DNA of 64,000 nucleotides. Origin: Chloroflexota bacterium (lineage in GTDB: Bacteria > Chloroflexota > UBA6077 > FW602-bin22 > JACPRP01). The position numbers were made by a program, and so were the translations under genes. The notes under the pieces are model-generated. The model was given only the letters and a program-made list of their open reading frames with translations, made no database searches and was not told the origin of the DNA. The stretch is taken from positions 62,001-126,000 of the forward strand of contig JACPRP010000001.1 in the NCBI GenBank assembly GCA_016189905.1, in the 5' to 3' direction. Positions 25,957 through 39,025 of this stretch are shown here, piece by piece (position 1 is the stretch's first letter; the number at the start of each line of letters is the position of its first letter).

Positions 25957-26706
25957 TCAGTCATGATCATGCAGCCAGGCGGCAACCTGATATAGGCTCG
26001 CGGCAAGGAGAAAGCCCCCTAAAATATCACTCGGCCAGTGGTAGCCATAGAACAACGCACTGTAACTGACGAGCACGGCCATCGCGAACAAGATGCCGAG
26101 CGGCAGCCAGTAACTCAACAGATCGCGACGGCTCCTCAACCGGTGAATCTCGCCGGCTAGCAGGAGGGCAAGTAAGAGGCTCCGGGCAGCGTGGCCGCTA
26201 GGGAATGCGCCCCGGCTTTTGGGCGACGCTGAAGGTGTCGCCGGTGTGGTTGCGGCGGCGACAAACGTTTCGCGCACGACAGCATCAGCACGATCGAGCA
26301 CCGCGCTGATCGACTGCGCGGCAATCTCTCGATGCAGCGCATATGCGCTTCCAGGCACAGGCTGATCGACCGCCAGTTGTATGACCGCCTGCGTGCCTAC
26401 GGCGGCGAAAACGACTAGCGGGGAAAGGGCGGCGAGCACAGAGCGATATCGAAACCACATCAGCGCGGCGAGGACCAGCGCTATCACCGCGTTCACCTGG
26501 GCGAAGCCCAGGCGGAATACCCAGTTCAGCACCGGTTCGAGGGCCAGCGGTCGGAGGCCAGCGACAAGCTTCATCGTCGCCGCGTCCCCGTCGGCAAGAA
26601 GGCGCGCGTGAACCGCAACGGCCAGCCCGATGAATAGAAAGCTCCAGATGATCAGCCATCTCACGCGACGAGCAATGATCCCTTGCGACAACACACCCTC
26701 CGCCAC
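25957..26706 (-). CDS. PAP2-family membrane phosphatase
   Basis: 249 aa, about six membrane segments. Motif 2 is FPSGHAARS and motif 3 is YSALFYGYHWPSDILGG, so both catalytic histidines are present. The usual motif 1 (KxxxxxxRP) is degenerate (QLAVDQPVPG), lacking the lysine and arginine. It probably dephosphorylates a polyprenyl pyrophosphate or similar lipid carrier for polysaccharide synthesis. The annotated GTG has no clear ribosome site; a TTG five codons in follows GGAGGG. It starts 6 bases after the phosphatase gene upstream. Confidence 0.83.
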   Translation of the reverse strand: MAEGVLSQGIIARRVRWLIIWSFLFIGLAVAVHARLLADGDAATMKLVAGLRPLALEPVLNWVFRLGFAQVNAVIALVLAALMWFRYRSVLAALSPLVVFAAVGTQAVIQLAVDQPVPGSAYALHREIAAQSISAVLDRADAVVRETFVAAATTPATPSASPKSRGAFPSGHAARSLLLALLLAGEIHRLRSRRDLLSYWLPLGILFAMAVLVSYSALFYGYHWPSDILGGFLLAASLYQVAAWLHDHD

Positions 26707-26712
26707 ATTTTG

Positions 26713-27480
26713 TCACCAAAGGATCCAGCTCTTCTTCCGTCGGGGAACCGTCGGTTCAGGAAGATCAGGGACCTCATCGTTGATAAGCGCCTCGGGGATG
26801 GATGTCACCATCGCCAGCGCCAGGTCCTCGCCAACGATCCGTCTCGCGTACTCGACTGCCTCCGAGAGAACAGGTGGCCTCGAACTGGCGGAGTGAGCAT
26901 CAGACGCGATGACGTGTGCGAGGTTGTGCTCGAGCATTACCTTTGCCGTGTTCTGGGCGCTCCGCCCGAAGACGCCGAGTATGCTGCCCGCCGTCACCTG
27001 AGTGAGAATTCCTCGTTCGACCATCCTCAGCAGAATCCCGATGTCTTCTTGAAACGCCTTACAGCGCTCAGGATGGGCGAGCAACGGCACATAGCCCTGT
27101 AGCTGAAGCTCATAGAGCACCTGTTCGGTATAACGCGGGAGTGAATGCGACACCAGCTCGACCAGAAGGTAGCGGCTGCCGTTGAGAGGAAAGACCATCC
27201 CGTTTTTGGCCAGCGCGGGCGTCATCGGCGTCAAGAGGACTTCAAGTCCTGGCAGCACGCGAAGCTCGACCCCGTGATCGCCGAGAGCTTGACGCAGATC
27301 TTCGACCCCGTCCCTCACCAGCTTCTGGGACAATTCAGTATCCCCCATACTGTTGTGCGGGGTGGCAACCACACACCTAACCCTATCCAGAAGGGCTCTT
27401 TCAGCCATAGCCAGGGCCTCGTCGATGCTTGATGCACCATCATCCAGACCGGGCAAGATGTGGACGTGAATATCGATCAT
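26713..27480 (-). CDS. CpsB/CapC-type PHP-domain tyrosine phosphatase
   Basis: About 255 aa from MIDIHVHILPGLDDGA, the PHP metal site signature. Other metal ligands appear in VVATPHN, LPGLEVLL, LAHPERC and ASDAHS. CpsB/YwqE enzymes remove phosphate from the tyrosine kinase that controls chain length in capsule synthesis. No cognate kinase lies in the window. The start is moved six codons downstream of the ORF-track start to match the family. Second gene of the polysaccharide operon. Confidence 0.9.
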   Translation of the reverse strand: MIDIHVHILPGLDDGASSIDEALAMAERALLDRVRCVVATPHNSMGDTELSQKLVRDGVEDLRQALGDHGVELRVLPGLEVLLTPMTPALAKNGMVFPLNGSRYLLVELVSHSLPRYTEQVLYELQLQGYVPLLAHPERCKAFQEDIGILLRMVERGILTQVTAGSILGVFGRSAQNTAKVMLEHNLAHVIASDAHSASSRPPVLSEAVEYARRIVGEDLALAMVTSIPEALINDEVPDLPEPTVPRRKKSWILW

Positions 27481-27532
27481 TCGCTCATCTTGAGGCATTC
27501 ATGTTACCGCGTCTGCGGCCCTGACACGCCAA

Positions 27533-28072
27533 TCATCCTCTGGCCTTCGTCAGGTGTTCGGCTCCTACCTGGACGCGCGTGAGCCGCCCAAGGATTTCCA
27601 GCAGAACCAGGCAACGCCCCCGCGGTGTCAGGGCACGATCGAAAATCGCCTCTACACCACGGAAAACTCCCGACGTGACCACCACCCGATCACCTGGCGT
27701 GAACCTGGCCGCTGGACGTTTGGTATTCTCGAGAGCCAATCGCTGCCTGATTTCTTCGATGAGTCTGCTTTCCACAGGTAAAGGGGCACCATCGCCACTC
27801 AGGATGTAGCTGACCCCGGGGGCGGAGCGGCTGCGAAGATACTCGTCGGATTCACAGTCGATCTTGAGAAACAGGTAGCCGGGGAAGAGCGGCTCGACAA
27901 CACGCCGCTTCAGTAACGGTAGATACACGATGATGCGCCGGGCATCGAGCACATTGGCCGTCTGACGCTCGGCGTGGGGCTTGGTCTTGAGAACGTACCA
28001 CCGGCGGTTATCGCCTTGCTCGCCAATTACAACGCTTGTAACGCCGATCGTTTCTGTTTGATACAATGACAC
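27533..28072 (-). CDS. Specialised NusG paralogue (RfaH/LoaP/UpxY-like antiterminator)
   Basis: 179 aa with an NGN domain (RRWYVLKTKPHAERQTANVL, PLFPGYLFLKI) and a C-terminal KOW domain (RFTPGDRVVVTSGVFRGVEAIF). It is more divergent than housekeeping NusG and heads a polysaccharide operon, the usual place for operon-specific antiterminators. It should bind RNA polymerase and suppress termination across the roughly 7-kb transcript. AGAGGG touches the ATG, so a TTG two codons later may be the real start. The leader carries a small GAGCC/GGCTC hairpin that could be its recruitment signal. Confidence 0.85.
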   Translation of the reverse strand: MSLYQTETIGVTSVVIGEQGDNRRWYVLKTKPHAERQTANVLDARRIIVYLPLLKRRVVEPLFPGYLFLKIDCESDEYLRSRSAPGVSYILSGDGAPLPVESRLIEEIRQRLALENTKRPAARFTPGDRVVVTSGVFRGVEAIFDRALTPRGRCLVLLEILGRLTRVQVGAEHLTKARG

Positions 28073-28236: not shown

Positions 28237-28977
28237 TCACTCACCAGAAGAATTCCAGATATACTCGACCAGTATATCGATCTCCGCGGCAGTGCCGATT
28301 TTTCCCCACGCTGGCATGTAGACAACTCCTGGTCGGCCTTGATCGACCAGTCTGCCGTGCAAGACAACGCTTCTAACCATCTCCCGCGAGCCGAACTTCT
28401 GTTTGAAACCTGGTCCGCCTATTTTCGGGATGATCTGGTGCGATGGGGAGGATGCCGCTTGGTTGCGGATCCCACCAGTTCCCAATGGGCCGTGGCATTT
28501 TGTACAGGCGAAAGATGTGTAGATCTCCTGGCCGGTCCTGGTGCCCGATACTGGCACGTTCAGATTCGGCAATCCGGCCCTGATGTAGGCAACGATATCG
28601 CCGATCTCCTCATCGGAGAGGATGCTATTCCAGGCTGGCATCGAAGCCACGCCATCTTTTTCGATGATCGCGCCATTCTTGATCATCTGGAGGAGCGCGC
28701 CGTCGAATTCGGCACCTTTCGGAAAAGTCTTCTTAAACTCGGCGGAGACGAGGGATGGTCCGGAGGCGGGGAGCAGATCCCGTCCTCGACCTCCAAGTCC
28801 GTGGCATCGCACGCAGCCAAAATCCACGTAGAGCCACGCCCCGTTCTTTACCTCTGGCGAATACTGCCCGCGCGCCGCCTCCAACTCTCCATCGGGGACG
28901 GCCCGTTGCGCACACGCGGCGACGATGATGACGAAAAGCAGCAGAAGCGATACCTGTAATCCTCGCCGTAGCTTCAC
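28237..28977 (-). CDS. Diheme cytochrome c lipoprotein (copy B)
   Basis: About 246 aa. The lipobox VIIVAAC gives a lipid-anchored extracytoplasmic protein. Two c-type heme sites are CVRCH and CTKCH, with MPAW methionines as likely axial ligands in each half. It is a close paralogue of the first gene of this cluster (copy A), and the similarity continues about 100 bases upstream of the coding regions. Aligning the two shows shared codons MKxxRG after an AGG-rich ribosome site, so I use the GTG nine bases inside the ORF-track start. It is last in the cluster and likely passes electrons between the complex and a terminal acceptor. Confidence 0.9.
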   Translation of the reverse strand: MKLRRGLQVSLLLLFVIIVAACAQRAVPDGELEAARGQYSPEVKNGAWLYVDFGCVRCHGLGGRGRDLLPASGPSLVSAEFKKTFPKGAEFDGALLQMIKNGAIIEKDGVASMPAWNSILSDEEIGDIVAYIRAGLPNLNVPVSGTRTGQEIYTSFACTKCHGPLGTGGIRNQAASSPSHQIIPKIGGPGFKQKFGSREMVRSVVLHGRLVDQGRPGVVYMPAWGKIGTAAEIDILVEYIWNSSGE

Positions 28978-29137
28978 TTTGTGCACCCCTTTGCTTAACT
29001 TTCGATCCTCGATCCTTAGTTTCGAAGACCCAACAGATGGCGAGAATGCAATTGCTATGCATCAGGTCCACATTACAGTGTGGCTGCAACGACATCAGCG
29101 TCGCCGGGTTCATGAACTTTAACTATTTGTGATGATC

Positions 29138-31258
29138 TTAACGGCCACCGGCCATTGCCTTGAAGAACTCGAGCAGAGCCGCGATGTCATCCTTGCTGAT
29201 TGGCCCTCCTTTCTCCTCTCCCCACGATGGCATCGCGCCCTTGCCGTTTGCGATGCTCATTCCCAACGCTGCATCTCCACGCTCCTGTAACCAGGCAGCG
29301 TCAGCCAGCTTCGCCTCCGAGACTCTGTCACGGCTCTGGCCGTGGCAGGCCTGGCAGTTCTTGGCATACAGGTCTCGTCCGCGCGCGGCGTCACCGCTGA
29401 GCTTCACTTCGACGCGCTGGCCAGACCCCGAGCCCGACGCGGCCTGTCCGCCGCGAGCCGCTTCATTCAAATAGGCGAGAACCGCGGCAATATCGTCCGG
29501 GCTCAGCGGTCCACCTTTCTCTTTACCCCACGCCGGCATGAGCTCCTTGCCATTGGCGATGCTCTGACTCAAAGCATTATCGCCGCGCTGCTGGAGCCAA
29601 TCCGCATCGCCCAGCTTCGCCGTTGGCATCGTACTTCGATTCTCGCCATGGCACGTCCCGCAGTACTTGGCGTAGATCTCCTTGCCCTTTGCCGTGATGC
29701 CACCCGGCCCCGCGGCGCTATTGTTGCCAGGCACCGCTGGCGGGTTGTTCGTCGTCGACGCTGATACGCCGGCCGCCGACTTCAAGTACGCGAGCACCGC
29801 CGCGATGTCGTCCTGGCTGAGCTGGCCACCCTTCTCCTTGCCCCAGGCAGGCATCGCACCTTTGCCGTTAGCGATACTTTGAGCCATGGCGGCGTCGCCG
29901 CGCTGCTGAAGCCAGCTAGCATCCGCAAGCTTTGCAGAGGGCAGCAGGTCACGGGCTGCGCCATGGCAAACCGTGCAACTCTTGGTGAAGATATCCTTCC
30001 CACGAGCGACCACAGAGTCACCGGCCTGGGCCGGCGGCGCAGGGGGAGCGTCTCCGGCCGGCGGCGAGGTCTCAGCGACACCCCGCAGATAATCGACCAG
30101 GCTCTTGATTTCAGCCGGCGATAGCGGTCCACCAGATGCCTGGCCCCATGCGGGCATGCCCCGGGTATTGCCCTGACTGATCTGGCGCTGGAGCGCTTCG
30201 TCCGAGCGGGCCCCGAGGAACTCAGGAGATCTAAGGTTGGCGCCAGCGACCTTATTGCCGCCTTCGCCGTGACACCCCGCGCAGCTATTAATATAGAGAT
30301 CGCGACCCTGGCTGGCCTTCTCTGGACCGATCAGCGCCGTATCGGCTGGGAGCCCTGCCGAAGACTTTAGATAGGCAAGGATAGCGCCGATCTGCGATGC
30401 CTGAAACGTGCCGCCCTTTGACGGCCCGAAGCCAGGCATTACCCCACTCCCTTCTGAGACCACCGAGGTGAGCCTGCCATCGCCAAGTCGACGAAGCAAC
30501 TCTGGGGTCGTGAGGGCGACATTCGGCACCAGGTTGCCGCGCTCGCCGTGGCAGTGGAGACAACTGGCCATATAGAGGTCACGCCCCTGGCGTACTTCCT
30601 CGGCCGTTGCCGCCTCAGCATTATAGCGCAAGTAAGAGACGAGCGCTTGCACCTGCTCCTCGCTGAGTGGATTCGGCACCCCTGAACGGAAAGCTGGCAT
30701 CGGACTCTTCCCATCGCTGATGACATCGATCAACTGAGCATCGGTTCGCGAATTAAGGAAGCTCTTCTCGGCCAGCGGCACCGCCGGGATGCGGTCGCCC
30801 CTGTCGCCGTGACAGCGGGCGCACTCTTGCTGGAAGACGGTCCGGCCAGAGCTGGCGAGGATAGTCGGGCTCGTACGCCCGGCGGAGGCATTCAGATAGG
30901 CCACCACGGCGCTGATCTGATCGCGCGTGAGCGGGCCACCGCGCTCATCACCCCACGCCGGCATCACCCCCTTACCTCCGCTGATCGCGCTAAACAGGGT
31001 GGCATCGCCACGCAGGTCGAGAAATTCCTTGATGTTCAATGGGGCGACCGGCACACGGTCACCCTTCTCACCGTGGCACGCAACGCAGTTGGCTACATAA
31101 ACCTGCCGGCCTGCCGAAATGGCATCGTCACGCGTCTCAGGTGCCGAACCCTGTAGCGCTGTGCAACCGGCAAAGGCGAGTGCGGCAAAGATGAGTAGGA
31201 TCATCAGCCGGGCCGGACTCGACGGCCACGTCGCAACTTGGGACTGCTGCTCTGTCAT
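29138..31258 (-). CDS. Heptaheme lipoprotein: seven tandem class-I-type cytochrome c domains
   Basis: 706 aa. Lipobox FAGC (Cys32) predicts lipid anchoring outside the cytoplasm. Seven consecutive domains of about 90-95 residues each carry one heme site: CVACH, CARCH, CLHCH, CAGCH, CTVCH, CGTCH, CQACH. Each is followed 40-45 residues later by an MPxW/MPxF axial methionine. Domains 5-7 are most alike (WLQQRGD..SIANGK..MPAWGKEKGG), suggesting recent internal duplication, and Pro/Ala/Gly-rich linkers separate domains 4-7. All hemes look His/Met, hence high potential. It follows the monoheme cytochrome by 21 bases. Probable role: an extended electron wire from the NrfD complex to an acceptor. Confidence 0.92.
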   Translation of the reverse strand: MTEQQSQVATWPSSPARLMILLIFAALAFAGCTALQGSAPETRDDAISAGRQVYVANCVACHGEKGDRVPVAPLNIKEFLDLRGDATLFSAISGGKGVMPAWGDERGGPLTRDQISAVVAYLNASAGRTSPTILASSGRTVFQQECARCHGDRGDRIPAVPLAEKSFLNSRTDAQLIDVISDGKSPMPAFRSGVPNPLSEEQVQALVSYLRYNAEAATAEEVRQGRDLYMASCLHCHGERGNLVPNVALTTPELLRRLGDGRLTSVVSEGSGVMPGFGPSKGGTFQASQIGAILAYLKSSAGLPADTALIGPEKASQGRDLYINSCAGCHGEGGNKVAGANLRSPEFLGARSDEALQRQISQGNTRGMPAWGQASGGPLSPAEIKSLVDYLRGVAETSPPAGDAPPAPPAQAGDSVVARGKDIFTKSCTVCHGAARDLLPSAKLADASWLQQRGDAAMAQSIANGKGAMPAWGKEKGGQLSQDDIAAVLAYLKSAAGVSASTTNNPPAVPGNNSAAGPGGITAKGKEIYAKYCGTCHGENRSTMPTAKLGDADWLQQRGDNALSQSIANGKELMPAWGKEKGGPLSPDDIAAVLAYLNEAARGGQAASGSGSGQRVEVKLSGDAARGRDLYAKNCQACHGQSRDRVSEAKLADAAWLQERGDAALGMSIANGKGAMPSWGEEKGGPISKDDIAALLEFFKAMAGGR

Positions 31259-31279: not shown

Positions 31280-31720
31280 TTACTTGTTCATCGACTTTAG
31301 ATAGGCGGTGATCGCCGTCAGGTCGTAATCGCTAACATCCCGCTCCGCAAAAACCGGCATGCCACCCGGGCCCCGACGGACGTTCTCACGCAGCACCTCG
31401 AGGTCTGGTATAGGGCGCGGACCGACAGCGCCGCCTTCTCCATTTACACCGTGGCATCCGGCGCAGCCGTACGCAACATATAGGGCCTTGCCGCGCTCCT
31501 CCATCGGCGCAGTGGCGTCGACCTGGATGGAGAGTGACGCGGGTCGGTAGAGCCGGGGTGGGCCAACCTCCGCCTGCTCGGTGCGGGTGTAACCTGAATC
31601 GAAACGCGATACCAAGTTCGCGTGGGTATATGGGCTGCGCAGGGCCACCCCAATCAAAGTGGCGGGTAACACCACGACAACGATCGTGGCGATGATTGGC
31701 ACGGCGAAACGATGGTTCAT
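31280..31720 (-). CDS. Membrane-anchored monoheme cytochrome c
   Basis: 146 aa from MNHRFAVPIIATIVVVVLPATLIG, a single N-terminal membrane anchor, then one CAGCH heme site and a GGMPVF methionine. ATG follows GGAGAGGG and overlaps the stop of the Ig-like gene (ATGA), whereas the ORF-track start is 52 codons inside that gene. It resembles small cytochrome subunits of NrfD-type quinol dehydrogenases such as ActE. It probably takes electrons from the ferredoxin/NrfD pair. Confidence 0.88.
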   Translation of the reverse strand: MNHRFAVPIIATIVVVVLPATLIGVALRSPYTHANLVSRFDSGYTRTEQAEVGPPRLYRPASLSIQVDATAPMEERGKALYVAYGCAGCHGVNGEGGAVGPRPIPDLEVLRENVRRGPGGMPVFAERDVSDYDLTAITAYLKSMNK

Positions 31721-32448
31721 TGGCCCTCTCCTTTCCGTCGCACACCAGACGCACCGGCATGCACGGACTGGGACGACAGAGTACCGCTGCCGCCTGCCGA
31801 AGCAATCCGAAATATCTGGCTCACCGCGACACCATATAACGACCAGATAGTCAGCAGCACCAGGACTATTGGCCACACGCTAAGCGTAGGCCAGAGCGCC
31901 CCCAGCCCTGTCGCTGGAGACCCAGATCCATGCGCATTCATTTCTGCATTCGATTGTTGACCGCCCGGCGCCGTGTTCAAGCCAGGGATCTGCACTCCTG
32001 CGTGCTGGACATACAGTTGCTGCGCAGGCTCGTCGACCAGAAACCGGTCCGTAGCTCTCGCCGATGTATAGCGGTCATTACCACGAAACTCGGCGCGAAC
32101 ATCGAGCCAACCCGGGTTCCGTACCGAATACTCCGTCTCGGCCACCCCTTCCTTATCGGTCTGAACCTCGGCGATCAAGACATCGGCGGTGGAGCCGAGG
32201 AAAAAAGTGTTGGGCACGACGAAAGCGACCTTGACGCCGGCGAGTGGCGCGCCAGCGGCGTCGACCAGTTTCGCGCCAAGCTTCACGTTCTCTCCCACCT
32301 TCGGCGTCTTCCCGATCGAAAGGCTGATTTTCGTGGCGTTTGCGTGCGTCTCAGCGAAAGCTACTCCCGCCCACGCCGGAGCGAGCAAAGCGAGCAAAGC
32401 ACACAACAAGGCGGCCGACCGGATTCCCTTGACTGTCCTGCAGTTCAT
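31717..32448 (-). CDS. Secreted Ig-like domain protein with C-terminal membrane anchor, part of cytochrome cluster
   Basis: 243 aa. A signal peptide (LLALLAPAWAGVAFAE) precedes a beta-rich domain resembling bacterial Ig-like/invasin-type folds (PKVGENVKLGAKLVDAAGAPLAGVKVAFVVP). A linker and one membrane helix follow (WPIVLVLLTIWSLYGVAV). It has no heme or cluster motif. It overlaps both neighbours by 4 bases, so it is probably a structural subunit of the NrfD complex, perhaps holding the cytochromes at the membrane. Function is inferred only from position. Confidence 0.7.
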   Translation of the reverse strand: MNCRTVKGIRSAALLCALLALLAPAWAGVAFAETHANATKISLSIGKTPKVGENVKLGAKLVDAAGAPLAGVKVAFVVPNTFFLGSTADVLIAEVQTDKEGVAETEYSVRNPGWLDVRAEFRGNDRYTSARATDRFLVDEPAQQLYVQHAGVQIPGLNTAPGGQQSNAEMNAHGSGSPATGLGALWPTLSVWPIVLVLLTIWSLYGVAVSQIFRIASAGGSGTLSSQSVHAGASGVRRKGEGQ

Positions 32449-33866
32449 ACCCCACTCCTTTCCGGGAGACTACGTGGTTCGGGCGCGCGCTGAGGTTCCA
32501 GATCTGCCATAGGCACCGATCCAGGCTCGGGCCCCCTATGCTCGACGACCTCCCATACCGATACCATTGGGAAAAGCTTTACTGCCACCGAGATAATCAG
32601 GGCGAATTGCGCAAAGGCGCCGGCGAGGATCGACCATTCTACCCATGTCGGTGAGTAGCTCGCCGGCTCGTAGGGCATCAGTGGAACGCGAAAGCCCGCG
32701 GCGACGATGAGGTAGCGCTCGATCCACATCGCGATCAGCACCAGAACGGCGGCGACGCAGATCCCTTTTACGTTGCGTGTTTGCGGGAACAGAATAATCA
32801 GACCGGGCACGATCATGCCACCGATGATATAGAACCAGAACTGGACGGAAAACATTCCAACCATCAACTGCTCGAAGTGAAAGCCCGCCTCGCCGGCCAT
32901 CTTGTAGCCGACGGTAACATACTCGTTGAGGTTCGCGTAGGCCATGATCAACGCGAAAGCCCCGAGCATATAGCCCAGACATAGGAACTGCGTCCTGGTG
33001 ACATATTCTTCGAGGCGCAGGAGACGCCTGAGCACCGCCATCAGCAGAATGATGGCGGCAATGCCGGAGTAGATCGCCCCCGCGACGAAGTAGGGGCCAA
33101 AAATGGTACTGTTCATCCCCTCGCGCAGCGTCATAGCAAAGATCCACGAGACCACCGTGTGCACGGAGACTGCCACAGGGATGATGACGATCATCATTAT
33201 CGTCAACGCTCGATCGAGCGCCTTGCGCTGTGCCTCCGTGCCAGTCCACCCCACCGCTGCGACGGTAAAGAAGAGGCGCTTCCAGCGCGGCGCCGTCGGT
33301 CCCAGACGGTCACGACAGAGCGCAAAATCCGGTATAAGCGGCAGGACCAGATAAATCGCGCTGCCCGTAAGATAGGTGCAGATCGCCAACACGTCCCAAA
33401 GCAGGGGCGACTGCCAGCGACCATAAAAGATCATGTTAAGAACTCGGTCGGGACGACCCAAGTCGATCAGTGGGAAAAGGGCACCCACCATCAGCGCGAC
33501 GACGGTGATGAACTCCGCCATGCGCGTGATCGAGAGCTGCCAGCGTGCTTTGGTGACACGCAGAATCGCAGATAAGAGCGTGCCGGCGTGGCTTATACCG
33601 ATGAAGAACACGAAGCTAATAATATAGACGCCCCAGGAGATGCGATCGCGCATGCCCGTCACAATCAGGCCACGATCCCATTGTTGGCTGTAGGCATAGA
33701 ACGCCCAAAGCAGGACCGCCACGAGGAAACCCACCCAAGCGAAATAGGCCGGGCTGCTGCCCGCCAATGGTCGCAAGACACGCCTTTCGAGGCGCTCGCG
33801 CCATTCAGGCGTCACGCCGGGGTGGGCGTGATTGGCGTGCTCACCTTGCATCCTTACCGTGTCCAT
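32445..33866 (-). CDS. NrfD/PsrC-family membrane quinol-interacting subunit
   Basis: 473 aa with about ten membrane helices. Segments WGVYIISFVFFIGISHAGTLLSA and MAEFITVVALMVGALFPLIDLGRPDR are typical of NrfD-like proteins of PsrC, ActC/ActF and QrcD type. It should oxidise or reduce menaquinol at the membrane and exchange electrons with the periplasmic ferredoxin encoded just upstream (13-base overlap). ATG follows GGAGGTGA. Only one NrfD gene is present, whereas alternative complex III has two. Confidence 0.92.
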   Translation of the reverse strand: MDTVRMQGEHANHAHPGVTPEWRERLERRVLRPLAGSSPAYFAWVGFLVAVLLWAFYAYSQQWDRGLIVTGMRDRISWGVYIISFVFFIGISHAGTLLSAILRVTKARWQLSITRMAEFITVVALMVGALFPLIDLGRPDRVLNMIFYGRWQSPLLWDVLAICTYLTGSAIYLVLPLIPDFALCRDRLGPTAPRWKRLFFTVAAVGWTGTEAQRKALDRALTIMMIVIIPVAVSVHTVVSWIFAMTLREGMNSTIFGPYFVAGAIYSGIAAIILLMAVLRRLLRLEEYVTRTQFLCLGYMLGAFALIMAYANLNEYVTVGYKMAGEAGFHFEQLMVGMFSVQFWFYIIGGMIVPGLIILFPQTRNVKGICVAAVLVLIAMWIERYLIVAAGFRVPLMPYEPASYSPTWVEWSILAGAFAQFALIISVAVKLFPMVSVWEVVEHRGPEPGSVPMADLEPQRAPEPRSLPERSGV

Positions 33867-34804
33867 GTCTCACCTCCATCGGAACTCCTCTGCCACGACC
33901 AGACAGTCGGCTTGCGTCCCTTTTTGTATGGGTTACGCCCCACATTCTGGCCGTAGCCCGGGATGTAGTAGACGCGCGGTTCGGTGCCGAGGTCCTCCTT
34001 CAAGTGATAGCTGGAGTTGTAACTGGCGAAGCGCGAAAACTGGACCACCTGAACGCCATTTGTCGCGAGATCCTCTTCCAGGTCGCCGTAGTAGATCGCG
34101 TTGTTCGGGCAGGCCTGCGCGCAATAGGGGAGACGACCTGAGCGCGCCATATGGGGGCAGAAGTTGCACTTCATCACCGTCCCCTTGTAAGCCGGCGACT
34201 GATTCTCGGGATTGTACGTCTGGAAGATCGTCTCGGGCGGCTGCGTTGGCTGGCCCCAGTTGAAGAAGCGGCGGTCATAGGGGCAGGCTTCCATGCAGAT
34301 CCGGCAGCCGATGCAGCGCTCCTGGTCAATCAGCACGATGCCCTCGGGACTATGGAAAGTCGCGCCGACCGGACATACGTTGGTGCAGGGAGAGTTTTGA
34401 CACTGCTGGCACGGTGTCGGAATGAACTGCGTTCCCCCGCCGGGGAGCTCCGCCTCGTACGTCTCAATCCATTCCATCGGTTCTGGGGCGTAATGGCCCT
34501 GGACGCATGCCTGTGTGCACTGTGGTGGCTTGCCCACTGATTGGCAGCCATCACAGGAGCGCAGGTCGATGATCATCGCCCAGCGGCGCACTCGCTTCTC
34601 AGTATCGCCAATCGCTTGGGCTACAGTGTGCTGATGTGCTTTATCCTCAGGCGATTGGCGCGCCGCGCCGAGGACCGGCTTCGCTAGCGCTCCCATTGCG
34701 CCGCTTGCCGCGGCTATGAAAGCCCATTTTAGAATGGAGCGTCGGCCCAGACGCAGCCTCTCTGATCGCCGCCCGTCAGCAGAACCTCCAATCTGTTCGG
34801 TCAT
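33854..34804 (-). CDS. Tat-exported four-cluster ferredoxin (NrfC/PsrB/QrcC-like)
   Basis: About 316 aa from MTEQIGGSADG, preceded by GGAGAG. The N-terminus has a twin-arginine signal (LRLGRRSILKWAFIAAASGA). Cysteine groups CDGCQ..CTQAC, CQQCQNSPCTNVC, CIGCRICMEAC and CNFCPH..CAQAC would hold four clusters. It is the electron-transfer partner of the NrfD subunit and acts outside the cytoplasmic membrane. In DMSO/polysulfide reductases the next partner is a molybdopterin subunit, which is absent here, so electrons must pass to the cytochromes. Confidence 0.92.
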   Translation of the reverse strand: MTEQIGGSADGRRSERLRLGRRSILKWAFIAAASGAMGALAKPVLGAARQSPEDKAHQHTVAQAIGDTEKRVRRWAMIIDLRSCDGCQSVGKPPQCTQACVQGHYAPEPMEWIETYEAELPGGGTQFIPTPCQQCQNSPCTNVCPVGATFHSPEGIVLIDQERCIGCRICMEACPYDRRFFNWGQPTQPPETIFQTYNPENQSPAYKGTVMKCNFCPHMARSGRLPYCAQACPNNAIYYGDLEEDLATNGVQVVQFSRFASYNSSYHLKEDLGTEPRVYYIPGYGQNVGRNPYKKGRKPTVWSWQRSSDGGETWTR

Positions 34805-34869
34805 GCAATCTCTCCTTCCTTTGGTCCAAACGGTGTTGCCTGAACAGTGTGACCCGTAGGACAGTGTTT

Positions 34870-35604
34870 TCAGTCGAAGTTCCAGATATAGTCGACGATC
34901 CGGTCGATCTCTTCGGCCGTACCGATTCTGCCCCACGCGGGCATATAGACCACTCCTGGTCGACCTTGATCCACCAGACTGCCGTGCAGTATCACCGCTC
35001 TAACATTGGCGGGCGAGCCGAACTTTCCGCGAAAATCCGCTCCGCCAAGCTTCGGGATGGTCCTCTGTTCTGGATTAGAAGCGGCGATGTTGCGGATTCC
35101 CCCGACGCCCAGCTCGCCGTGACACTTGCTGCAGGCAAATGAACTGTAAATCTCTTGGCCCGTCCTTGTACCTGGGATCGGTAGGCCCAGGTCCGGCAGT
35201 CCGGCCCTGATATATGCGACGATGTCCCCCATATTTTCGTCGGTGAGAATGCCATTCCAGGCTGGCATGGACGCGACCCCATCTTTCTCGATAATTGCGC
35301 CGTTCTTGATCATTTGGACGAGTGCGCTGTCGAATTGCGGACCTTTGGGAAAGGCTTTCTTGAAGTCGGTTGACACGAGAGACGGCCCGGCAGCGGGCAT
35401 CAGATCGCGTCCTCGCCCTCCCAGGCCGTGGCATTGGACACAGCCATAGTTGACGTAGAACCATCCTCCGTTTGTGACCTCAGCCGAATACTGCACGCCC
35501 TCACCTGACGACGAAGTGCCAGAAACCGTTCCTCGCGAGCATGCGACGATGACGATGGCAGATAAGAACAGTATTAATAACAGTGATCCTCGCCAAACTT
35601 TCAA
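34870..35604 (-). CDS. Diheme cytochrome c lipoprotein (copy A)
   Basis: About 244 aa. Lipobox VIVAC; heme sites CVQCH and CSKCH, with MPAWNG and MPAWG methionines. Strongly similar over its full length to copy B at the other end of the cluster. I use the TTG start nine bases inside the ORF-track GTG because it follows AGAGGTG and lines up with copy B. First gene of the electron-transfer cluster, 65 bases before the ferredoxin gene, and about 440 bases downstream of the two-component regulator. Confidence 0.9.
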   Translation of the reverse strand: MKVWRGSLLLILFLSAIVIVACSRGTVSGTSSSGEGVQYSAEVTNGGWFYVNYGCVQCHGLGGRGRDLMPAAGPSLVSTDFKKAFPKGPQFDSALVQMIKNGAIIEKDGVASMPAWNGILTDENMGDIVAYIRAGLPDLGLPIPGTRTGQEIYSSFACSKCHGELGVGGIRNIAASNPEQRTIPKLGGADFRGKFGSPANVRAVILHGSLVDQGRPGVVYMPAWGRIGTAEEIDRIVDYIWNFD

Positions 35605-36041
35605 TTCACGCACCTCTTTTTGCCGGTTATCGATCCTCGATGTTTCGTTCCTGATCCATGATCTGCAGAACTCAATGAGTGGCGAGAGTGCAACGCTGCA
35701 GCAAGTCCAGCGCAGGCAATCGCAGCAGCGATATCTGTGCAGTTGTATTCTATTTCCGGATTAGTTGGATGCCTATCACCGCAATGAGACTCTTTTGATT
35801 CAGAGAAGGCTGATCTTGAGGCCGAGGAAGTGTGTACTTAGCGCCATACTTGAGGACTAAGATCCTGGTCGTCTTTCTATGACCTCATGTGTAGTGAATA
35901 AGCGACATGAGTTGTCGTGAATTTATGACATCAGGTGACCTGACTGGGTGAAATGGATTAGGCAACATTTAAAGGAAGCACTAACCTTCACGGTGACAAA
36001 GAGACGGGTCTGATGGTCGAATTGAATCCCTAATTGAAGTC
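35605..36041 (-). promoter_or_regulatory. Regulatory gap between response regulator and cytochrome cluster
   Basis: No gene seen. The part nearest the cytochrome gene (TTGCACTCTCGCCA and flanks) is shared with the region upstream of copy B. Further up lies an inverted repeat CTCATGT (35884-35890) / ACATGAG (35905-35911) and two related direct copies of ATGACmTCAkGTG (near 35880 and 35925), plausible response-regulator sites. No consensus -35/-10 pair is evident, as expected for an activator-dependent promoter. Confidence 0.4.
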
Positions 36042-36698
36042 CTAAAGGTTCAACTGGATTACGCCGCGTCGAATAGCGTACTTGATCAAATCCGCGCGGC
36101 TGCGAAGGTTCAGCTTTTCCATTATTCGACTGCGATACGTCTGAATGGTGCTGACGCTGAGCGTCAGCTTGGTGGCGATGTCCTGGTTCGTGAAACCTTC
36201 CGCTATCAGACGAAGGACTTCACGCTCTCGCGTCGTAAGCGACTCGTAGGTGTCCTTTTCCTCCCCGAATCTCAAGCGCCGCAAGTATTCGGTTACCAGT
36301 CGCTTGCCGAGCGAGGGAGGAAAGTAGATCTCACCGCGACATACGGCCCTAATGGCGAGCGGTATCTCGGCCGATGCGGCCCCCTTGAGGACATACCCGG
36401 CCGCGCCGGCGTTTAGGCTGCGAAAGAAGTAGTCGTCGCCATCGTGGACGGTCAGCGTGACCACTTTGGCCGATGGGCAAAGCTTTTGCAGTTGGCGCGT
36501 TGCCTCAATCCCATTCATTCCAGGAATGCCCAGATCCATCACGACCACGTCTGGCTGCAGCTCCACCGTTTTCTTGACGGCCGAATCTCCATCCGATGCC
36601 TCGCCAATAACCTCGATATCCGGCTCGCACTGAAGCAGCAAGCGAATCCCGTCGCGTACAATACCGTGATCGTCAACCACGAGAACTCGAATCTTCAT
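36042..36698 (-). CDS. NarL/FixJ-family response regulator
   Basis: 218 aa. The receiver domain has the phospho-acceptor Asp in VVMDLGIPGMNG (about residue 54) and KVVTLTVHD. The LuxR-type helix-turn-helix is LTTREREVLRLIAEGFTNQDIATKLTLSVSTIQTYRSRIMEKL. GGAGGG lies inside the end of the kinase gene, five bases away, so the pair is cotranscribed. The obvious target is the cytochrome cluster next downstream. Confidence 0.93.
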   Translation of the reverse strand: MKIRVLVVDDHGIVRDGIRLLLQCEPDIEVIGEASDGDSAVKKTVELQPDVVVMDLGIPGMNGIEATRQLQKLCPSAKVVTLTVHDGDDYFFRSLNAGAAGYVLKGAASAEIPLAIRAVCRGEIYFPPSLGKRLVTEYLRRLRFGEEKDTYESLTTREREVLRLIAEGFTNQDIATKLTLSVSTIQTYRSRIMEKLNLRSRADLIKYAIRRGVIQLNL

Positions 36699-36703
36699 TC
36701 CCG

Positions 36704-39025
36704 CTACCCTCCCTCTGCTATCGGAACCTTAATCGTTAACTGGGTTCCCTTTCCTGGTAATGAACGAATGACGAGCGAGCCTCCGAGAAGCTCAACCCGC
36801 TCGCGCATCCCCAGTAAGCCTAGCTGCCTGCCATCGGCAGCGTGTCCCACATCTTCCAGTTGGAATCCCCGCCCATTATCTTCGACAGACGCCATCAGCA
36901 ACCCGTCGGAGCAGCGTAATCTGATCCAGGCCTTTGTAGCACCCGCGTGCTTGGCGATGTTCGTGATGGCCTCCTGCAAGATGCGGTATACCTCAGTTTC
37001 TACTTGAGTGGCCATGCGTTCTTGAAGCCCCAGAATAGATACGTTAACGCGGATATCCTCCACTTCTAAGCGTTGCTGCGCGTATGATCGGATGGCTGCG
37101 CCAAGGCCGATGTCGTCGAGGACGGTGGGGCGAAGGTCCAGGATCATCTGTCGAACGTCGGTCAAGGCGCGCTCGCTCAAAGCTTTCGCCTGTCCCAACC
37201 GCTCGCGCTGGGCGTCAGGAATGTCGGATCGGCCGGCTTCGATAGCTTCCAAGGACATTCTCACAACGGCCAGCGCTTGCGCGAACCCGTCGTGGAGCTC
37301 TCGTGCGATGCGCCGCCTCTCCTCTTCCTGAGCGGTAATGACCTTCATCAACAGTCTGCCGCGCAGCTCCTCTTTCTGCTGAACCTCTTCATAGAGTTGG
37401 GCATTGTCCAGGGCAATCGCCGCCTGGTAGGCGATTGCCTGAAGGGCTTTCAACCCCGCCTGGGAGAAGGAAGAAGGCTCTTTGAAGTCATAAACGATGA
37501 GAATGCCGAGCGTTCCTCGCTTGGCGACCAGGGGAACGCACATGGCGTATTGAGAACCATCCACCGTGAGCCCGGCGGCCTTAAACGTACGGCTGTTTTC
37601 GGGGGTCAGATTCAGGTTTTCGTCCGTCAAGACGCGATCTGGCAGACAAACTGGCCGGCCGCTTTCGAAAACCCTTCCGATCACGCCCTCGCCGGGCCTC
37701 AAACGAGCTTCACGTAAAGCCTCGATGTCGCACCCAAAGCTGGCAACGGGAACGAGCCTGCCGAGGTGCGGCTCAAGCATTACCATCACGCCGGCATCGG
37801 CGTCCGGGCACACGCGCCTGGACTCGGTTAGGATTATGTTCAGCAGTACGGAAAGATCAAGGGTCGAGGTGAATGCCTCTGACGCAGCCAGCAAAGCGGT
37901 TACCTCGCCGGCCCGTTGCTCGGCCTCCTTCTCTAAATCAGCCTCGTACTGTTCCCTCTTATCGATCAGGTCTCGCAGCCTCTGGCGCATAGTCTCCACG
38001 GACTCCGTCAGCGTGCCTATCTCGTCTACCCGCTGCGACCGTGGGATCGGGCTCGCGAGGTCTCCTGATCCAATTCGGGCGGCGGCCAGCGTCAGCGCAT
38101 TTATAGGTTTGACCACGCGGCGGATGTCGACCCAGGCGACGGTGACGGCAACGATGAGCGAAATGGCACCAAAGGCAAACAACTGCCTCTCCAGGTCCTG
38201 GGCCAGGTCTAGCGTTGTGTACAGCGGTTGCTCCATAAGAACTCCCCAGCCAGGTACGCTAACCATTGGCGCATATGCAACGGTGTGCCGTGGCAAGCCT
38301 GGGACGTCGTGCACAACCACACCGGCTCTGCGCTCTCGAAGGAACTGGGCTATTATGTTGGCGTGTACGTTACGCCGATACCTGATACCCGTCTCGCTCG
38401 AGCTCGCCAGCACCAGGTTCTGATTCACGAGCTCCACCGCCACGGCACCCTGGTCAGCCGAGTGAAGCGTGATATGGAAGCCTGTCGCATCAGGATCCAG
38501 TTCTGCCATCAGCACACCGATGATGGCACGGGACTGATTTCGCACGGGGACTGATAAGCAGGCTAACGTTTTCCCCCCGTCTATCTGTGAGCGCCATTCG
38601 GCCACCTGCGGCTCGCCAGTGATTAAAGCTGCCCCGGCCGCCGGATGGGTCAAAAAGAAATCAGTATCATCCGTGGCTAGCTTTGGTGGCTCGCCAGCCA
38701 CGACCTTACCAGACATATCCAACAACCTGATTTCGGCAAAACCCCCAAGGCGTATTGCAGTATCGCGCAGAATTTCCCTTTTTAGCCCCAAGTCGGCATC
38801 CTCTCGCATAATGCCGGGGAACTCGGCGGTTTTCTTGAGGACCCCGATCGAATGATCCATCATGCCATCCAGGTGGCTGGCGATGGCCTCGGCAAGGACG
38901 AGGCGGGCCTCGGCGTCGGCATCGTTGCTCTTGCCGAGCGCCCATCTACCCAGATAGCCAAAAATGAGCATTACCACGAACAGACTCAAAACTACAGTCA
39001 GGATCATCCGGTACTGCAGCTTCAT
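36704..39025 (-). CDS. NarX-like membrane sensor histidine kinase (Cache-HAMP-GAF-HisKA_3)
   Basis: 773 aa. A membrane helix at about 7-28 and another near 285-303 flank an extracytoplasmic Cache-like sensor domain. Then come HAMP (VKPINALTLAAARIGSGDLASPI), a coiled coil, and a GAF domain at about 395-545. HisKA_3 carries the phospho-acceptor His in RRRIARELHDGFAQ near 570, and HATPase_c has VEDNGRGF and GLLGMRERVELLGG. It senses an external ligand, and perhaps a cytoplasmic one through GAF, and phosphorylates the adjacent regulator. Confidence 0.93.
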   Translation of the reverse strand: MKLQYRMILTVVLSLFVVMLIFGYLGRWALGKSNDADAEARLVLAEAIASHLDGMMDHSIGVLKKTAEFPGIMREDADLGLKREILRDTAIRLGGFAEIRLLDMSGKVVAGEPPKLATDDTDFFLTHPAAGAALITGEPQVAEWRSQIDGGKTLACLSVPVRNQSRAIIGVLMAELDPDATGFHITLHSADQGAVAVELVNQNLVLASSSETGIRYRRNVHANIIAQFLRERRAGVVVHDVPGLPRHTVAYAPMVSVPGWGVLMEQPLYTTLDLAQDLERQLFAFGAISLIVAVTVAWVDIRRVVKPINALTLAAARIGSGDLASPIPRSQRVDEIGTLTESVETMRQRLRDLIDKREQYEADLEKEAEQRAGEVTALLAASEAFTSTLDLSVLLNIILTESRRVCPDADAGVMVMLEPHLGRLVPVASFGCDIEALREARLRPGEGVIGRVFESGRPVCLPDRVLTDENLNLTPENSRTFKAAGLTVDGSQYAMCVPLVAKRGTLGILIVYDFKEPSSFSQAGLKALQAIAYQAAIALDNAQLYEEVQQKEELRGRLLMKVITAQEEERRRIARELHDGFAQALAVVRMSLEAIEAGRSDIPDAQRERLGQAKALSERALTDVRQMILDLRPTVLDDIGLGAAIRSYAQQRLEVEDIRVNVSILGLQERMATQVETEVYRILQEAITNIAKHAGATKAWIRLRCSDGLLMASVEDNGRGFQLEDVGHAADGRQLGLLGMRERVELLGGSLVIRSLPGKGTQLTIKVPIAEGG

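Follow-up and report, generated by a model that had tools for sequence, protein, structure and literature searches.

A lipoprotein with seven tandem single-heme domains encoded in an ActC-type NrfD operon of a Chloroflexota bacterium

Explanations of long-range electron export mostly invoke densely packed multiheme proteins. Some of the described systems closest to the locus analysed here are built around NrfD subunits, which exchange electrons with quinones, carry no cofactor themselves and belong to complexes that run in either direction (PMC8076601). For the alternative complex III (ACIII) of F. johnsoniae, ActA has been proposed to provide the last shuttle, in the form of a mobile monoheme domain anchored to the membrane (PMC8552683). 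We analysed a stretch of 64,000 nucleotides (the window) from a Chloroflexota bacterium (assembly GCA_016189905.1, contig JACPRP010000001.1, positions 62,001 to 126,000), in which an operon with an ActC-type NrfD subunit also encodes a lipoprotein with seven tandem heme domains, hereafter called the heptaheme. This protein is most likely the arm through which electrons leave (or enter) a pared-down ACIII-like quinol complex.

The heptaheme gene and its operon

The genes are read leftwards on the reverse strand, in the order histidine kinase, response regulator, a 428-bp gap, diheme B, ferredoxin, NrfD, Ig protein, monoheme, heptaheme and diheme A:

36704..39025 (-): HAMP/GAF sensor histidine kinase, upstream and conserved with the core operon (Pfam, neighbourhood comparison)
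36042..36698 (-): NarL-type response regulator, upstream and conserved with the core operon (Pfam, neighbourhood comparison)
34870..35613 (-): diheme cytochrome c lipoprotein B, first operon gene (ORF, Pfam, motifs)
33854..34936 (-): periplasmic 4Fe-4S ferredoxin subunit of the ActB C-terminal/DsrO/PsrB type, with a Tat-like signal (Pfam, profile matches)
32445..33866 (-): NrfD-family quinone-interacting membrane subunit, closest to ActC/DsrP (PF03916, E 5e-34; 6f0k_C, E 8e-55)
31717..32448 (-): Ig-like (Big_1) protein with a C-terminal membrane helix (Pfam; partner kept in genomes G005, G009 and G023)
31280..31720 (-): membrane-anchored monoheme cytochrome c, 146 aa from the ATG at 31720, overlapping the stop of the preceding gene (ORF, Pfam, motif)
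29138..31258 (-): heptaheme cytochrome c lipoprotein, seven domains, 706 aa, ATG start (ORF, Pfam, motif positions)
31163..31258 (-): its lipoprotein signal peptide, with the lipobox at the end (sequence; ortholog)
30884..31129 (-): heme domain D1, CVACH ... MPAW (domain comparison, motif positions)
30620..30865 (-): heme domain D2, CARCH ... MPAF, 8-residue linker from D1 (motifs, domain tree)
30359..30604 (-): heme domain D3, CLHCH ... MPGF, 7-residue linker from D2 (motifs, domain tree)
30077..30325 (-): heme domain D4, CAGCH ... MPAW, 13-residue linker from D3 (motifs, domain tree)
29774..30019 (-): heme domain D5, CTVCH ... MPAW, preceded by a 22-residue Pro/Ala-rich linker (motifs)
29459..29704 (-): heme domain D6, CGTCH ... 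MPAW, preceded by a 25-residue Asn/Pro/Ala/Gly-rich linker (motifs)
29150..29398 (-): heme domain D7, CQACH ... MPSW, preceded by a 22-residue Gly/Ser-rich linker (motifs)
28237..28986 (-): diheme cytochrome c lipoprotein A, last gene, after a 151-bp gap behind the heptaheme (ORF, Pfam, motifs)

The CxxCH motifs of the heptaheme lie at residues 58, 146, 233, 326, 428, 533 and 635 and are followed by MPAW, MPAF, MPGF, MPAW, MPAW, MPAW and MPSW at residues 99, 187, 274, 368, 469, 574 and 676, a distance from CxxCH to MP[AGS][WF] of 41–42 residues in all seven domains. Seven CxxCH motifs are not a chance occurrence, because shuffled proteins of the same composition contain a mean of only 0.0035. 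Both Cytochrome_CBB3 (PF13442, total E 1e-93) and Cytochrom_C (PF00034, E 4e-57) match seven stretches; these matches, the motifs and the fold of a D1–D2 model (see below) place the domains in class I cytochrome c. Heme density is about 1 per 100 residues, with hemes spaced 87–105 residues apart. The signal peptide ends in LAFAG-Cys32, read by eye as a near-consensus lipobox, which points to a lipoprotein. The sequence-only reading of this gene, as one lipoprotein in which each of seven single-heme domains combines CxxCH with MPx[WF], is thus borne out. Weak Pfam matches to MtrC, cytochrome c3 and the like were attributed to a pile-up of CxxCH motifs. The NCBIfam model ccoP (TIGR00782) scores 214.7, above its cut-off of 179.95, only by summing the seven domains, an annotation trap through which the protein could automatically be called cbb3 oxidase subunit III. 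Identity with CcoP was rejected, since COX1 family matches fall on contigs 116, 12 and 76 and none on the contig of the window, which leaves the CcoN partner absent there.

Within the operon, the FeS/NrfD, NrfD/Ig and Ig/monoheme gene pairs each share a few bases, and the spacer between the monoheme and heptaheme genes is 21 bp long; promoter and terminator scans gave results near chance levels. Besides 6f0k_C, the NrfD subunit matches ActC of solved ACIII in 8k9e_C (E 2e-53) and 6lod_C (E 8e-53), and the DsrP model matches it below cut-off. The ferredoxin subunit, with an ORF of 360 aa whose true start is probably the ATG near 34804, resembles PsrB, DsrO and the ferredoxin end of ActB. The diheme lipoproteins A and B are 67% identical paralogs that flank the heptaheme cluster. 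Just downstream, at 25957–28072 (-), a polysaccharide cluster begins with a NusG-domain (RfaH-like) gene followed by genes for a CpsB/CapC-type phosphatase and for a PAP2 protein.

The set of histidine kinase, response regulator, ferredoxin, NrfD, Ig and monoheme genes is found again, in full or in large part, in G005, G009 and G023, where it has no heptaheme gene with it and where all three have a monoheme ORF at the corresponding place. The heptaheme is therefore an optional add-on to a working or recurrent quinone complex. In G023, which does encode an ortholog, that gene is not beside the NrfD operon and has as neighbours CcsA-, ResB- and ResA-like biogenesis genes, genes for TPR and NHL proteins and one for a six-CxxCH protein. 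The partnership between heptaheme and NrfD is therefore not fixed by gene order, and this different neighbourhood is the chief objection to an exclusive one. Another complex could also serve as the partner, since the host genome contains an ACIII-like locus that includes a pentaheme cytochrome, and a COX1 oxidase on contig 116. The ortholog's neighbourhood would suit a general cytochrome c lipoprotein that serves several complexes, the ACIII-oxidase among them, and lies in this operon by chance. We regard this as very improbable in view of the 21-bp spacing within a co-directional run of overlapping genes and of an independent pairing of ferredoxin, NrfD and a tandem cytochrome in Gemmatimonadetes (see below).

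Cytochrome c assembly proteins are encoded in the host genome. No Omp85/BamA was detected in this MAG, which is 86% complete, so that absences from it are weak evidence. Because no Omp85/BamA was found, the heptaheme probably sits on a single (cytoplasmic) membrane and faces outward to the wall; Chloroflexi are thought to be monoderm (PMC5808234).

Relationships of the domains, linkers and models

Among 29 genomes of the class, the only full-length relative of the heptaheme is that of G023, a member of another family, at 55% identity. No further one was found at E<=1e-15 in 400 genomes of the phylum, and one scan of genome contigs returned distant relatives only (25–34% identity). The G023 ortholog likewise has seven domains and a lipobox (...LVAG-C). 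In a single-domain tree, with W1–W7 denoting the domains of the heptaheme under study and G1–G7 those of the ortholog, W2/G2 (support 100/99), W3/G3 and W4/G4 form well-supported pairs. In the tail, W5–W7 group together with G5 and G6 beside them and G7 apart, a grouping with support of only 84–85. Because D2–D4 pair orthologously while the tail clusters by genome, the tree suggests an ancestral front part of the array and a tail that each of the two lineages duplicated or homogenised on its own after they had split; the equal count of seven domains may then be a coincidence.

The last three domains, D5–D7, share 56–66% of their amino acids and 61–65% of their DNA, against 27–44% amino acid identity for the remaining domain pairs. 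Their earlier description as near repeats is thus apt relative to the other pairs and not in absolute terms. Third codon positions are identical in only 43–45% at residues common to the three, and comparisons among W5, W6 and W7 show saturation at synonymous sites, with a dS that is 2.9 or could not be calculated; G5 and G6 of the ortholog are 82% identical, with a dS of 0.44. This saturation rules out a recent duplication of D5–D7. These duplications are old, and the proposal that the array grew recently therefore fails for the heptaheme gene of the window, the ortholog also having seven domains.

The linkers fall into two classes. Those between D1 and D2, D2 and D3, and D3 and D4 (8, 7 and 13 residues) have identical lengths in the G023 ortholog and similar sequences in both proteins (AGRTSPT, AEA..AE and AGLPA..AL.GPE). 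Those between D4 and D5, D5 and D6, and D6 and D7 measure 22, 25 and 22 residues, compared with 41, 38 and 35 in the ortholog, and are rich in Pro, Ala, Gly and Ser, of low complexity and unconserved in length. Judged from these sequences, the heptaheme would consist of a fixed four-domain block, D1–D4, and three tethered domains, D5–D7. A full-length model built from the two sequences was poor (pLDDT 45). A model of D1–D2, based on an alignment of D3–D4, D5–D6, both neighbouring diheme proteins and one relative, reached a pLDDT of 84.5 and a pTM of 0.64, values that are good per domain and leave the relative placement of the domains uncertain. Its single domains fit cytochromes c6/c552 (TMt about 0.66–0.76, rmsd 2.2–3.4 Å). 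No known two-domain arrangement matched the whole model, the best reaching a TM of 0.35–0.38 at an rmsd of 13–14 Å (QcrC about 0.35, 13 Å).

An electron wire built by domain duplication, as first proposed for this gene, agrees with these results in that a single class I domain has been duplicated, with no compact bis-His multiheme fold; as a single rigid object it is doubtful, short linkers of conserved length being confined to D1–D4. A continuous heme wire would require all seven domains to be stacked, with electrons hopping along the whole length. The short D1–D4 linkers, equally long in the ortholog, suit such fixed neighbours, and D1–D2 are modelled as adjacent class I domains. Set against this are the 22–41 low-complexity residues that precede each of D5–D7, unconserved in length, and a D1–D2 model of uncertain domain placement that fits no known diheme arrangement, and we consider the wire unlikely. 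Alternatively, the seven hemes could act as a reservoir, or capacitor, that stores electrons and buffers either the complex or an acceptor of low abundance, in which case no path would be required. Similar single-heme domains are indeed repeated here, and the ActE heme of ACIII has been proposed as a buffer or sink (PMC8552683). This seems improbable to us, as it leaves unexplained why two linker classes are kept across 55% identity.

A proposed tethered electron arm on a quinone complex

The reading that we favour, to which we assign a probability of about one half, is that the heptaheme is a lipid-anchored electron arm functionally attached to the NrfD/ferredoxin quinone complex, with D1–D4 as a block and D5–D7 on tethers. 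We counted in its favour the overlapping operon, the ActC-type NrfD and the matching ferredoxin, the add-on pattern, the linker classes, the class I folds of D1–D2, the Gemmatimonadetes pairing (see below), the ActA precedent and the failure to detect Omp85/BamA. Menaquinol, or another quinol, would be oxidised at the NrfD subunit, and electrons would travel from there by way of the periplasmic ferredoxin, and then of the small anchored cytochromes (monoheme or diheme), to the heptaheme. Here, D1–D4 would form a short block of four closely spaced hemes near the membrane, and D5–D7 on their flexible tethers would collide with distant partners, within the cell wall or outside it, and so deliver electrons to them, each extra copy of the domain adding reach and contact sites. 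By analogy, the shuttle principle of ActA would be multiplied in a single protein. The seven domains, the two linker classes, the operon, the ActC-type NrfD and the recurrence of the core operon elsewhere are observed; that the heptaheme would assemble with this complex as its partner, the direction of flow and the contacts between the hemes of D1–D4 are inferred.

Outward electron flow appears more likely than inward. For inward delivery, an outside donor (a metal, a sulfur compound or a partner cell) would reduce the arm and the NrfD complex would reduce quinone, as in Qrc and Nhc. Class I hemes with His/Met ligands usually have rather high potentials, which counts against this direction, and the best match of the NrfD subunit is ActC, from a quinol-oxidising complex. 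Weak matches to the QrcC and QrcD models and the occurrence of NrfD complexes working in both directions (PMC8076601) speak for it, and on balance we think it rather unlikely. A bolder form of the electron arm, possible rather than probable, is one that spans the cell wall of an organism that lacks an outer membrane: a rigid base of four hemes, continued by disordered, tethered heme domains, would swing electrons from the ActC-type quinol complex to outside acceptors, with no stacked wire, and domain number and linker length would grow lineage by lineage.

Among the selected loci of relatives that we compared, which are not a census, arrays of two or three single-heme domains are common, four domains occur once, and seven only in the heptaheme and its ortholog. 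We found no described case of a tandem single-heme array of seven-domain length in the open literature searched, which is weak evidence. In a Gemmatimonadetes MAG (L083, 194–2848 (-)), the gene directly after ferredoxin and NrfD encodes a cytochrome with four single-heme domains in tandem that belong to another subfamily, so that an NrfD complex and a tandem array are paired there independently. At a further locus (L040, 3773–5203, G000 contig 120), a NapC-like six-heme part is fused to three tandem single-heme domains, 33–49% identical to those of the heptaheme, and adjoins PsrABC-like genes and a 12-CxxCH cytochrome. Another (L042, G038 contig 544) combines NrfD, a band-7 protein, a seven-CxxCH protein with five compact and two single-heme domains, and a 9-CxxCH protein.

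If the electron arm is real, an array of ordinary single-heme domains in tandem, half of it fixed and the other half on tethers, would offer a simple alternative to dense multiheme proteins, one that evolution can lengthen by duplication, and the operon would show a stripped-down ACIII working without its pentaheme subunit.

Comparison with known systems

With ACIII (ActABCDEF) the window operon shares an ActC-type NrfD, a ferredoxin subunit and a small anchored monoheme cytochrome, and with F. johnsoniae ActA the heptaheme would share a tethered heme domain as electron shuttle. Unlike ACIII, the operon has no pentaheme ActA (no five-CxxCH ORF), no Mo-enzyme-like ActB half and no second NrfD (ActF), and has instead seven tandem class I domains and two diheme lipoproteins. 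DsrMKJOP and Qrc resemble it in their NrfD (DsrP/QrcD) and ferredoxin (DsrO/QrcC) subunits, whose models match, all below curated cut-offs; they differ in that the operon is without DsrMKJ or QrcAB. The best sequence and structural matches of the heptaheme itself are QcrC, CcoP and cytochrome c6. CcoP and actinobacterial QcrC also have tandem class I domains from the same Pfam families, but two rather than seven, and the orientation in QcrC misfits the D1–D2 model (rmsd 13 Å). Tandem duplication of a single-heme domain is likewise known from the magnetochromes MamE/P/T/X, where the domain is a different one and is usually present in two copies, three at most (PMC3971196). Nanowire cytochromes of the OmcS type have in common with the heptaheme many hemes in one exported protein and possible long-range transfer; whereas they form a compact chain of densely packed bis-His hemes, the heptaheme is made of separate class I folds with His/Met ligands.
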